Assembly: GCA_034670405.1 (NCBI GenBank)
Contig: JAXDDX010000007.1
Coordinates: 6,351,501 to 6,415,500 of the forward strand
Length of the DNA: 64,000 bases
Source of the DNA: Hoplostethus atlanticus
Taxonomy: Eukaryota > Chordata > Actinopteri > Trachichthyiformes > Trachichthyidae
Direction: 5' to 3'
A program made the translations under genes and the position numbers. The notes under the pieces are model-generated. The model had not been told where the DNA came from. It saw nothing but the letters and a program-made list of their open reading frames with translations, and made no database searches. This document shows positions 40,301 to 64,000 of the stretch, one piece after another (positions within the stretch are counted from its first letter, which is position 1; every line of letters begins with the position of its first letter).

Positions 40301-41102
40301 ACTTACTCTTAACAGCAGTATTTTTTTTGGTTTGGTTTGTTTTTTCTGCCCTAAAAGCAAGGCTGTGGACATTCAGTGGTTTGCAAGTCACTGTGCCCCT
40401 TGATTTTTCTAGTCTGTGGAGCAAAGGAGGTAAACTGAGACAATGAGAATAGAGTGATTATATTCATGGTGTCATACACAATAATTTCTAACGTATACAT
40501 GCAGATATGCTAATAAATGTAAGTTTGAACCAATGTCCCAGTCTCCACCAACTAACTGGGGTTGGCAGTGGATCAGAAAAGGTGGCAATTTTTAGCGACT
40601 CCGGAGGGAAATATAGGAGGGTGTTTTAGGTTATCCCACATGATACTGAGTATATGGTCCAAAACCCGGTTACATCTAAAAGCCTGCTTATTGGAGATTG
40701 TCAGTTTCATAATAAGTTTCAATTATTTCATAATAATTGTGTACAAACTTTTCTTGCATTAAGTAATATTTTCTAAGGTGTGTCAAGAGTATGTTGCCAC
40801 AAATGTTTGTCATGTTTGAAAGGAATGAGCGTATATAGCTGTGGGTGTTGTGTAAAGTTGTGATTTCCCATCTCTGACATCAACATCTCATGATCAATGA
40901 TCATCAGTATCACAGACAGCCACAGAATAATCCTGGGACATCACAAATAAGTTTTTAATTTCTCTGTCTTTTTTAATTTACTCCTTCCCAGTTTGCAACC
41001 CACCTGGTCAAGGTAAACTTCCCACGGGTTTGTATCCTGGATGGAGGGATCAACAAGATGAAGCCCACTGGACTCCTGACGGTCCCCTCCCCTCAGATCT
41101 GA
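342..41102 (+). CDS. tbck: TBCK, TBC1 domain containing kinase (3' 24 coding exons; 5' end outside window)
   Basis: TBCK is a Rab-GAP-like protein with pseudokinase, TBC and rhodanese-like domains; vertebrate TBCK is linked to mTOR signalling, endolysosomal traffic and, as part of the FERRY complex, mRNA transport on early endosomes (established knowledge). Twenty-four exons were placed by splice sites and by recalled similarity to vertebrate TBCK. They begin in the kinase-like N-lobe ([14 protein letters not shown]) and end in PSPQI plus a TGA at 41100-41102. Exon lengths sum to 2477 nt: 2 nt of a split codon plus 825 in-frame codons including the stop. About 65 N-terminal residues of a roughly 890-residue protein are therefore missing to the left. 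Exon coordinates are in the four domain entries. No frameshift or stop was seen, so the gene looks functional. Confidence 0.96.
415..1064 (+). other. tbck intron
   Basis: Contains the 340-bp MITE (521-860) and otherwise AT-rich unique-looking sequence. No exon or RNA gene was seen. Confidence 0.7.
521..860. mobile_element. MITE-like element with ~13-bp terminal inverted repeats
   Basis: It begins agagtggtgcagg and ends cctgcaccactct (an exact inverted repeat), flanked by TATA/TATA-like bases (tatat|agagtgg ... ccactct|atag). It is about 340 bp with no coding capacity. A partial copy lies at 17308-17357. It sits in a tbck intron; the transposon superfamily is not recognised. Confidence 0.7.
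1391..2082 (+). other. tbck intron, no feature seen
   Basis: AT-rich unique sequence between the exons ending VDFPIG and starting YPSYLAPE. Short opposing ORFs here have no supporting motif. Confidence 0.6.
2985..3513 (+). mobile_element. LINE 3' fragment (C-terminus of ORF2 and tail)
   Basis: A decayed reading frame gives [18 protein letters not shown], a common C-terminal motif of fish L2/Rex-type LINE ORF2 proteins. A decayed tail follows, ending with the typical gtgctttgtaaataaacttg. Stops and frameshifts show it is old. It lies within the tbck intron 2932-3768. Confidence 0.7.
3958..3997. repeat. (CA)n microsatellite
   Basis: About 20 CA units in the tbck intron right after the exon ending at 3917. 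This intron (3918-4971) shows no other feature. Confidence 0.95.
4972..5774 (+). CDS. tbck: TBCK exon block 2: linker between kinase-like and TBC domains
   Basis: Exons: 4972-5110, 5225-5324, 5459-5508, 5645-5774. They encode an acidic start ([19 protein letters not shown]), then [33 protein letters not shown] and a serine/asparagine-rich stretch before [17 protein letters not shown]. This region is well conserved with other vertebrate TBCK but has no assigned catalytic motif. CA/GT microsatellites flank several of these exons. Confidence 0.93.
5117..5140. repeat. (CA)n microsatellite
   Basis: About 11 CA units six bases after a splice donor in tbck. Confidence 0.9.
6094..12537 (+). CDS. tbck: TBCK exon block 3: TBC (Rab-GAP) domain
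   Basis: Exons: 6094-6192, 6278-6340, 6469-6595, 6865-6915, 7043-7126, 8099-8184, 10233-10269, 12376-12537. The domain starts at [11 protein letters not shown]. The arginine-finger motif IxxDxxR is intact as IEVDIPR (exon 6469-6595), and the glutamine-finger motif YxQ is intact as YWQ at the end of the same exon. Both GAP fingers are therefore kept, unlike the kinase site. [20 protein letters not shown] closes the domain. Exon 10233-10269 is only 37 bp ([12 protein letters not shown]) and sits between two introns of about 2 kb, so it is easy to miss in annotation. Confidence 0.96.
6426..6451. repeat. (GT)n microsatellite in splice-acceptor region
   Basis: A GT run ends 17 bp before the acceptor of exon 6469-6595, that is within or next to its polypyrimidine tract. 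Confidence 0.9.
7127..8098 (+). other. tbck intron, no feature seen
   Basis: AT-rich intron between two TBC-domain exons. I saw no repeat, transposon end or exon. Confidence 0.55.
8185..10232 (+). other. tbck intron with GT repeat
   Basis: Unique-looking sequence with a (GT)n tract at 9834-9860. No further exon or recognisable transposon was seen. Confidence 0.55.
10270..12375 (+). other. tbck intron with Tc1 remnant and CA repeat
   Basis: Holds the deleted Tc1 element (10592-11209), a (CA)n tract near 11475-11496 and unique sequence. No exon was seen. Confidence 0.6.
10592..11209 (+). mobile_element. Tc1-like transposon, internally deleted
   Basis: Long inverted ends: the left reads cagttcaggc then tattggcac, and the right is its complement (gtgccaataattgccagaactg). 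Homology extends about 120 bp inward at each end (gcagataatgtacaat; cacatgatcaaacaat-like). The middle keeps the C-terminal part of a Tc1 transposase in a broken frame (QDNDPEH, then WFKRK and NPSNLEELE). The segment that would carry the catalytic Glu is deleted, so it is non-autonomous. Confidence 0.85.
15092..15171. repeat. Long (CA)n microsatellite
   Basis: About 40 uninterrupted AC units, the longest perfect dinucleotide tract in the window. Length this pure suggests high polymorphism. Confidence 0.97.
17308..17357 (-). mobile_element. Fragment of the 521-860 MITE family
   Basis: The sequence gagtggtgcaggaatgagtc and its continuation match the reverse complement of the right end of the element at 521-860 for about 50 bp, then similarity stops. 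It is a solo end. Confidence 0.65.
17413..17472 (+). repeat. Short tandem repeat, ~20-bp unit, three copies
   Basis: Three head-to-tail copies of tcaaagagtctggttagagg, with the first and last slightly altered. Confidence 0.85.
18509..18526 (+). repeat. Poly(A) run
   Basis: Eighteen A residues. No recognisable retroelement lies upstream, so it is listed only as a homopolymer. Confidence 0.8.
19953..41102 (+). CDS. tbck: TBCK exon block 4: linker and C-terminal rhodanese-like domain
   Basis: Exons: 19953-20128, 30437-30600, 34691-34850, 40992-41102. The first encodes [21 protein letters not shown] and a low-complexity tail that differs most from mammals. The next encodes [15 protein letters not shown] and then the rhodanese fold ([19 protein letters not shown], completed across the splice). 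The rhodanese catalytic-loop Cys is absent ([12 protein letters not shown]), so sulfurtransferase activity is not expected. The final exon ends [19 protein letters not shown]. The donor after 30600 (gtatcc) is weak but required to keep frame. Confidence 0.94.
20816..21290 (+). mobile_element. Tc1-like transposon, 5' half, same family as 10592-11209
   Basis: Starts TA|cagttatggccaagattatt. Its first ~120 bp follow the terminal repeat of the element at 10592 (ttgcattttatacag; gcacatgatcaaaca). Further in, a short frame [17 protein letters not shown] resembles the DNA-binding linker of Tc1 transposases. The right end was not found and the middle looks interrupted. Confidence 0.7.
21866..22155. 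mobile_element. AT-rich MITE candidate with 12-bp inverted ends
   Basis: Exact inverted ends actttattataa ... ttataataaagt bound 290 bp of very AT-rich sequence rich in ttaat motifs. There is no coding capacity. Low-complexity sequence raises the chance of coincidence. Confidence 0.45.
22664..22688. repeat. (GT)n microsatellite
   Basis: About 12 GT units followed by gagagaga in the 20129-30436 tbck intron. Confidence 0.9.
23268..23317 (+). repeat. Compound (GT)n-G12-(GA)n tract
   Basis: A gtgtgtgtg run passes into about a dozen G residues and then agagagag. It is strongly purine-rich on the + strand. Confidence 0.85.
24260..24452. mobile_element. Palindromic (foldback) MITE, copy 1
   Basis: Nearly the whole 190 bp is one inverted repeat. 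Outer ends are gtgggcaatcgtgcc / atgattgcccac. Long inner arms run through gtctgcaggttttcact and caaagactacagcaggtg and back, around a ~30-bp asymmetric centre (cacaccttcaaccagagagg). No coding capacity. A second copy is at 39076-39250. Confidence 0.85.
26076..27331 (-). mobile_element. Tc1/mariner transposon with decayed transposase (family with TIR caccgatcagcc)
   Basis: TIRs tacaccgatcagcc... and its complement (gctgatcggtgca) are flanked by TA on both sides. The transposase lies on the minus strand in frames broken between about 26110 and 27199. It keeps SDFDKGQ and [15 protein letters not shown] (first catalytic Asp), FQQDNA (second) and [11 protein letters not shown] (Glu). Frameshifts near 26390 and 26650 disrupt it, and an inverted duplication (26984-27075) replaces part of the N-terminal coding region. 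The element is dead. Confidence 0.93.
26984..27075. repeat. 40-bp-arm inverted repeat inside the Tc1 transposase region
   Basis: The left arm ggtatgcaatggttagtacc... and the right arm ending ...ggtactaaccactgcatacc are reverse complements with one mismatch over about 40 bp and a ~12-bp spacer. The second Tc1 copy (56410-57236) lacks this region, so the ancestral order is not visible locally. Confidence 0.9.
30601..34690 (+). other. tbck intron
   Basis: No transposon could be assigned with confidence. The stretch 31010-31400 (caccgggccgtgaggac onward) has mixed composition reminiscent of a degraded repeat. A TC-rich tract lies at 33700-33740. No exon was seen. Confidence 0.45.
36640..37356 (+). 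mobile_element. LINE 3' fragment ending in (ATT)n, interrupted
   Basis: Decayed codons [13 protein letters not shown] match the usual ...[11 protein letters not shown]-terminus of fish LINE ORF2. The end is aaagcactttgtaac followed by aaagtttatttt and (TTA)n at 37323-37355. Sequence between about 36738 and 37190 looks like a different insertion. Confidence 0.6.
37535..37760 (-). mobile_element. Retroelement-like repeat tail (gtgtgcagtgaaatg type)
   Basis: The motif tttatttgtcacatacac followed by ggtgtgcagtgaaatg, then imperfect repeats of caacacaatatttacaat, resembles the interspersed retroelement 3' ends common in fish. The family is not certain. Confidence 0.45.
39076..39250. mobile_element. 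Palindromic (foldback) MITE, copy 2 (right end truncated)
   Basis: Same element as 24260-24452: gtgggcaatcatgtgcc, then the long arms with caaagactacagcaggtg. Its asymmetric centre is the reverse complement of that in copy 1. The final ~17 bp (ccatggcacatgattgc) are missing; the match stops at ctcggccctc. Confidence 0.85.

Positions 41103-64000: not shown

Follow-up and report, generated by a model that had tools for sequence, protein, structure and literature searches.

The region downstream of the gene tbck in the fish Hoplostethus atlanticus raises the question of how two neighbouring copies of a lipoxygenase sequence can be almost identical in short stretches around exons when the rest of their sequence has diverged widely. 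The locus lies in a stretch of 64,000 nucleotides (GenBank assembly GCA_034670405.1, contig JAXDDX010000007.1, forward-strand positions 6,351,501 to 6,415,500), which we call the window and in whose coordinates all positions are given. Very probably, the copies (gene 1 and gene 2) were generated by tandem duplication, in what were probably two rounds, gene 2 became a pseudogene, and islands within the pair were homogenised by gene conversion. Three ordinary processes would thus have met in one locus: a duplication that cuts into a neighbouring gene, the decay of an extra copy, and conversion that rejuvenates parts of the dead copy.

Tandem duplication with a breakpoint inside the last tbck exon

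Self-comparison of the window revealed a colinear plus-strand chain that runs from 41037 = 54080 through 53471 = 63008. The chain consists of two adjacent tandem copies that include gene flanks in addition to coding sequence, as is characteristic of a tandem segmental duplication. Approximately 4,880 positions could be aligned (1,352 coding and 3,524 noncoding), corresponding to 39% of the 12,435 bases of the first unit (U1) and 55% of the 8,929 bases of the last (U3); the remainder is unaligned. Near the start of the chain, 41029-42752 matches 54073-55729 on the plus strand with an E value of 9e-88 and 316 bits, whereas the second segment, shuffled 200 times by dinucleotide, scored 35.4 bits at best. 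The left border is exact: position 41037, inside the last tbck exon, corresponds to 54080 at the identical bases CTGGATGGAGGGATCAACAAG, and sequence further to the left is dissimilar. These results bear out the original prediction of a tandem segmental duplication broken inside the last exon of tbck, including the colinear match that it had anticipated between 41036-42100 and 54080-55200, and of a block carrying the tbck 3′ untranslated region (UTR), the lipoxygenase promoter and the lipoxygenase gene together. The block begins inside the exon as proposed, although its first base is 41037 and not 41036.

In U1, the duplicated portion of the last tbck coding exon spans 41037-41103 on the plus strand; the encoded peptide ends in ...LLTVPSPQI and is followed by a TGA stop codon at 41101-41103. 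The adjoining segment (41104-42079, plus strand) comprises the tbck 3′ UTR, with ATTAAA at 41182 and AATAAA at 41485, the lipoxygenase promoter P1 and a predicted noncoding 5′ exon. P1 contains the TATA-like sequence CATAAAAGG at 41974-41982, whose role is putative, as is the 5′ exon with its predicted donor, GGTAAGA, at 42042. In U3, the copied exon tail (54080-54141, plus strand) starts abruptly, without an AG splice acceptor at the left border, and is broken in frame by insertions and deletions; it is taken to be inert. Because this piece of the neighbouring gene is a 3′ end without an acceptor, no chimeric gene would be expected. It is followed at 54142-55180 (plus strand) by the duplicate 3′ UTR and promoter P3, with TATAAAAGG at 55079-55087 and a 5′ exon donor at 55143. 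Of the two poly(A) signals, ATTAAA is conserved between the units (54224 in U3), and AATAAA has no counterpart in U3. The duplicate therefore does retain a tbck poly(A) signal, as had been claimed, but this lies about 850 bp ahead of the TATA box of the pseudogene and not directly upstream of its promoter.

Genome-wide DNA searches were performed with two queries, the tbck tail with its 3′ UTR and one of the homogenised islands described below (island A). The former produced four matches, all within the window. No lipoxygenase match was found in the next 40 kb downstream, where further copies were sought; a single 94-bp DNA match of U1 to locus L009 was recorded in the same downstream search.

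One predicted working gene and one pseudogene

Gene 1 (42567-52899, plus strand) has 14 coding exons, as do most vertebrate ALOX genes, with GT/AG borders and an open frame of 670 amino acids; in this model the exon 10 donor was picked by frame and family alignment. Residues 1-670 match residues 21-689 of human ALOX15B over the full length (E 6.7e-191), followed by ALOX5 (3.1e-171) and then by ALOX15 and ALOX12. ALOX15B, to which identity is 44.3% (295/666), is the best match among the 18 PDB sequences listed, a set that contains neither ALOX12B nor ALOXE3. The protein carries WLMAK at 347, HxxxxH at 367/372, QHSAVN from 546 and a C-terminal ENSVAI, and we take H367, H372, H547, N551 and I670 to be its iron ligands. 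Gene 1 is predicted to encode a working S-type lipoxygenase, an assignment that the Ala at the presumed Coffa position (INYLARRLL) would fit. By contrast, a study of fish ALOX15 (PMC10531496) describes enzymes with Gly after Arg; it also assigns 14 exons to the fish ALOX15 genes and uses the W-..-AK motif and the ligand clusters as filters for lipoxygenases.

Comparison with gene 1 showed that gene 2 (55544-62548, plus strand) has lost much of its coding sequence. Exons 4, 7, 11 and 12 have no match (4 of the 14 coding exons), exon 9 is cut down to 17 of its 87 bp, and exon 10 to the first 83 of its 170 bp. Exons 2 and 8 are frameshifted, the acceptor AG that should precede the ATG has disappeared, and exon 14 has a 13-bp deletion that stops the frame before the C-terminal iron-ligand Ile. 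With exons missing, frames broken and this Ile gone, gene 2 has neither a complete open frame nor the full set of iron ligands; judged by these lesions it is dead and would be unable to make an iron-binding enzyme. The same lesions led us to reject the presence of two functional lipoxygenase genes, and it would be wrong to annotate the locus with two. A processed retrocopy was also rejected, because introns are present within the islands. The lipoxygenase sequence was indeed duplicated together with the end of tbck, as the original prediction had stated, but the product is a pseudogene and not a second gene; this decay had been missed, as had a third fragment at 53611-54024.

The exon 4 stretch of gene 1 (44759-45130) is absent between two adjoining gene 2 matches, near a Tc1-like insertion. 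This transposon occupies 56408-57238 in gene 2, beside the right border of island A, and is bounded by 30-bp inverted ends (56408-56437 and 57209-57238); from its translation we take it to be a Tc1 element. A second Tc1-like copy, 95-97% like the one in gene 2, is located at 26075-27329, where about 430 bp of other sequence splits its matching parts and an open frame of 124 codons is found at 26843-27217. Intron 10 of gene 1 contains a 353-codon open frame on the minus strand (49388-50449), which resembles the end of a reverse transcriptase of a long interspersed nuclear element.

Islands of likeness extend into noncoding sequence

Five islands of 216-522 bp, all on the plus strand, stand out in the comparison of the two genes. 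Island A (55879-56400, corresponding to gene 1 44103-44624) contains exons 2 and 3 with intron 2 and differs at 10 of 287 coding and 5 of 234 noncoding positions. Exon 6 and its flanks form island B (57773-58009; gene 1 45448-45685), with 6/167 coding and 7/70 noncoding differences, and exon 8 and its flanks form island C (58528-58802; gene 1 46396-46670), with 3/203 and 1/70. Island D (58920-59135; gene 1 46926-47141) covers the end of exon 9, intron 9 and the first half of exon 10 (4/100 coding, 4/116 noncoding), and island E (61491-61871; gene 1 52159-52531) includes 163 bp of intron 12, exon 13 and the start of intron 13 (6/171 coding, 5/202 noncoding).

When the islands were pooled, coding sequence differed at 29 of 928 positions (96.9% alike) and noncoding sequence at 22 of 692 (96.8%; Fisher p = 1.0). 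Background identity is far lower: 70% in intron 10 (156 differences in 528 positions), 74% in the 3′ flank (113 in 429), 77% in the promoter and 82% in the tbck tail and UTR. Ungapped identity along the same diagonal is 20-37% in the 60 bp bordering the five islands. Short tracts thus rise far above background irrespective of coding status, as expected of gene conversion. The blocks around exons 1, 5 and 14 are intermediate, with coding differences of 13/153, 18/104 and 9/167 and noncoding differences of 4/49, 0/9 and 8/65, respectively.

The pattern was also present when coding sequence was set aside. Colinear aligned blocks were strung together into 3,524 noncoding columns, so that segments may cross block joins and sequence outside the blocks is excluded. 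Segments of 282, 227 and 192 columns were found at 96.8, 97.4 and 99.0% identity, the other 2,823 columns averaging 73.7%, and the best segment was reached in 0 of 2000 column shuffles.

Rates of substitution agree between site classes. The nonsynonymous and synonymous divergences (dN and dS) are both 0.031 in island exons, and exons 1, 5 and 14 have a dN of 0.102 and a dS of 0.104; in total, 15 synonymous and 52 nonsynonymous changes were counted in 436 codons, leaving out frameshifted codons and exon 9. Since dN equals dS, the surviving exons appear to have been without net constraint since their last common sequence. Conservation of the exons by selection was therefore rejected as the source of island likeness, the noncoding parts being as alike as the coding parts, and the islands are best put down to later exchange by gene conversion between the two genes. 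A donor located elsewhere in the genome was also rejected: exons of the other lipoxygenase loci reach no more than 74% likeness at the protein level, and island A was found in two places in the genome by DNA search. Exons probably acted as seeds for conversion, because earlier selection would have kept them alike while introns drifted.

A third fragment between the two units

U1 and U3 are not joined by a simple junction; 608 bases (53472-54079) lie between them. Within this interval, the plus-strand segment 53611-54024 (T2) is an orphan third copy of the 3′ UTR, the TATA region (promoter P2, with TATAAAAGG at 53925-53933) and the 5′ exon donor (53985), with no gene attached. Nothing other than 3′ UTR, promoter and 5′ exon sequence was recognised in 53472-54079, where neither gene nor tbck exon sequence was seen, and the outer portions (53472-53610 and 54025-54079) match neither unit. 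Two segments of about 30 bp are common to T2 and its U3 counterpart, T3, and are missing from or unlike the U1 counterpart, T1. Promoter identity is 81.8% between P2 and P3 (121 positions; 78.2% over a longer span of 179), 77.3% between P2 and P1 (128 positions) and 77.1% between P1 and P3 (131 positions). This arrangement suggests at least two rounds of duplication with a collapsed middle unit. The two extra TATA regions, in T2 and T3, may still start transcripts.

Weighing the explanations

We propose that a segment reaching from inside the last tbck exon to just past the 14-exon lipoxygenase was tandemly duplicated, probably in two rounds, to give U1, U2 and U3. U1 contains the intact gene, U3 contains the pseudogene, and the fragment between them resembles the beginning of another unit; U2 would have been a full unit that was later deleted to about 0.4 kb of 3′ UTR, promoter and 5′ exon. 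After duplication, gene conversion would have homogenised exon-holding stretches of approximately 216-522 bp between the lipoxygenase copies, as the pattern of differences indicates, and the introns between the islands would have decayed meanwhile.

Since the islands contain exons and the introns are the most divergent parts, one might instead suppose a single tandem duplication in which purifying selection kept the exons alike until a recent death of gene 2, with no gene conversion. We consider this unlikely: it would not predict equal likeness of coding and noncoding island sequence, the equality of dN and dS, the abrupt fall in ungapped identity beyond the island borders, or the existence of T2. 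False duplication of a haplotype during assembly, for which near-identical repeats at another locus of the same assembly (C11) might be cited, is scarcely credible given a background divergence of about 26-30% and copy-specific lesions, both of which far exceed allelic difference, and the position of the window inside a 9.46-Mb contig. A stronger competitor, which we regard as possible though doubtful, accepts duplication, decay and conversion as proposed but derives T2 from the promoter region of U3 or U1 by a small local duplication. The restriction of recognisable sequence in 53472-54079 to 3′ UTR, promoter and 5′ exon is consistent with this. A simple tandem copy of a part of U3 would, however, be expected inside U3; T2 is found left of the U3 tbck breakpoint, a position that a collapsed unit would fit better.

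Several observations weigh against duplication in two rounds followed by conversion. The island borders were chosen by alignment score, a choice that inflates identity within the islands, and the fall beyond them was measured ungapped. Island B is the weakest, with noncoding sequence only 90% alike, and the intermediate divergence of exons 1, 5 and 14 could stem from an earlier conversion or have some other cause. The number of synonymous changes is small (6 in island exons and 9 in exons 1, 5 and 14). As 53472-53610 is unmatched and the unit junctions are unreadable, T2 may have arisen by a smaller local duplication, and since the genome search with the tbck tail and 3′ UTR did not report T2, that search is insensitive to weak copies, which escape it. 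Polarity is also equivocal. With human ALOX15B as outgroup, the 17 differing island residues (leaving out, here and below, those beside the two frameshifts and in the rest of exon 9) looked ancestral in gene 1 at 8, in gene 2 at 4 and in neither at 5, and the 26 residues in exons 1, 5 and 14 at 3, 5 and 18, respectively. With the other loci of the same genome as outgroup, the island residues favoured gene 1 at 6, gene 2 at 4, both at 5 and neither at 2, and the residues in exons 1, 5 and 14 were divided 10, 6, 3 and 7 in the same order. The direction of conversion is not settled by either outgroup.

Relative age of the proposed exchange

Ages can be given only in relative terms, as ratios of divergences. 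With the introns and 3′ flank as the clock (0.03 versus 0.32-0.38), the exchange would be about one tenth as old as the duplication, and with the tbck tail and UTR (0.20) about one sixth. The islands include the frameshifts of exons 2 and 8, which would postdate the exchange if gene 1 served as donor. Because the copies were partly re-homogenised after duplication, the age of the duplication must not be read from exon likeness; exon similarity would make it too young by about tenfold relative to introns and sixfold relative to the tbck tail and UTR.

A more speculative idea is that the dead copy serves as a store of variants, with repeated exon-centred conversion still feeding changes into gene 1. 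The mixed polarity of the island differences, with gene 2 ancestral-like at some sites, is compatible with this, and if it were true the array would shape enzyme specificity. We think it very unlikely.

Comparison with known systems

In GBA/GBAP1 and CYP21A2/CYP21A1P, gene and pseudogene exchange sequence through gene conversion. The present pair resembles them in having a functional copy next to a dead one, with short tracts homogenised between them, and differs in its older background divergence and in the heavier exon loss of the dead copy. Tandem duplicates that ignore gene borders, giving partial or chimeric duplicates, are treated in a review (PMC3449122). The segment described here is similar in that it joins one whole gene to a piece of its neighbour; unlike the chimeric duplicates covered there, the neighbour contributes an acceptor-less 3′ end. 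Zebrafish has seven ALOX genes, three of them 3a-c, according to PMC9787790. H. atlanticus likewise has several ALOX genes, but in contrast to the expansions described there the present pair sits behind tbck, and no other fetched locus of the genome is close to it.

Among the papers listed in a literature search for tbck with alox, none was on fish, as judged by title, and among those listed for lipoxygenase, tandem duplication, teleost and tbck, none joined lipoxygenase and tbck. Among the matches listed for gene conversion, pseudogene and lipoxygenase, none was on the subject by title or start of abstract. Each kind of event (a breakpoint inside a neighbour, pseudogenisation and conversion) is known; the present instance was not found in the literature searched.

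Other lipoxygenase loci and the tbck neighbour

The PF00305 profile matched 14 places in the genome, 13 of which are the same exon-8 stretch: gene 1, seven places on C11, two on C50, and one each on C9, C72, C127 and C280. Gene 2 is absent from these matches, probably because its exon 8 is frameshifted. By exon identities, which reach 74%, the C9 locus appears nearest to gene 1. The C11 region (G000:C11:2612001-2702000, L025-L033) holds seven lipoxygenase copies, one of them inverted, with 76 kb from the first to the last exon-8 match. Two of these copies share 98.1% identity along 5.8 kb at a spacing of about 21 kb, and a further pair is arranged as an inverted repeat with 97% likeness; the cluster is either recent in origin or in part the product of duplication in the assembly.

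Identification of the upstream gene as tbck rests on the plus-strand domain order Pkinase, RabGAP-TBC, rhodanese. The RabGAP-TBC match is above its cut-off (E 2.5e-9); the Pkinase match (19.8 bits, cut-off 31.7) and the weak rhodanese match (E 0.037) are below theirs. The domain scan gave no match in 10001-19800 or 20001-29400 (29401-32000 lay outside the scan), and phmmer comparison of the C-terminal tbck peptide with PDB sequences gave none either. Upstream of the last tbck exon, a short palindromic repeat of about 175 bp occurs at 24260-24455 and 39073-39250; its copies are 95% identical in inverted orientation (24278-24455 versus 39250-39073) and 87% identical in direct orientation.

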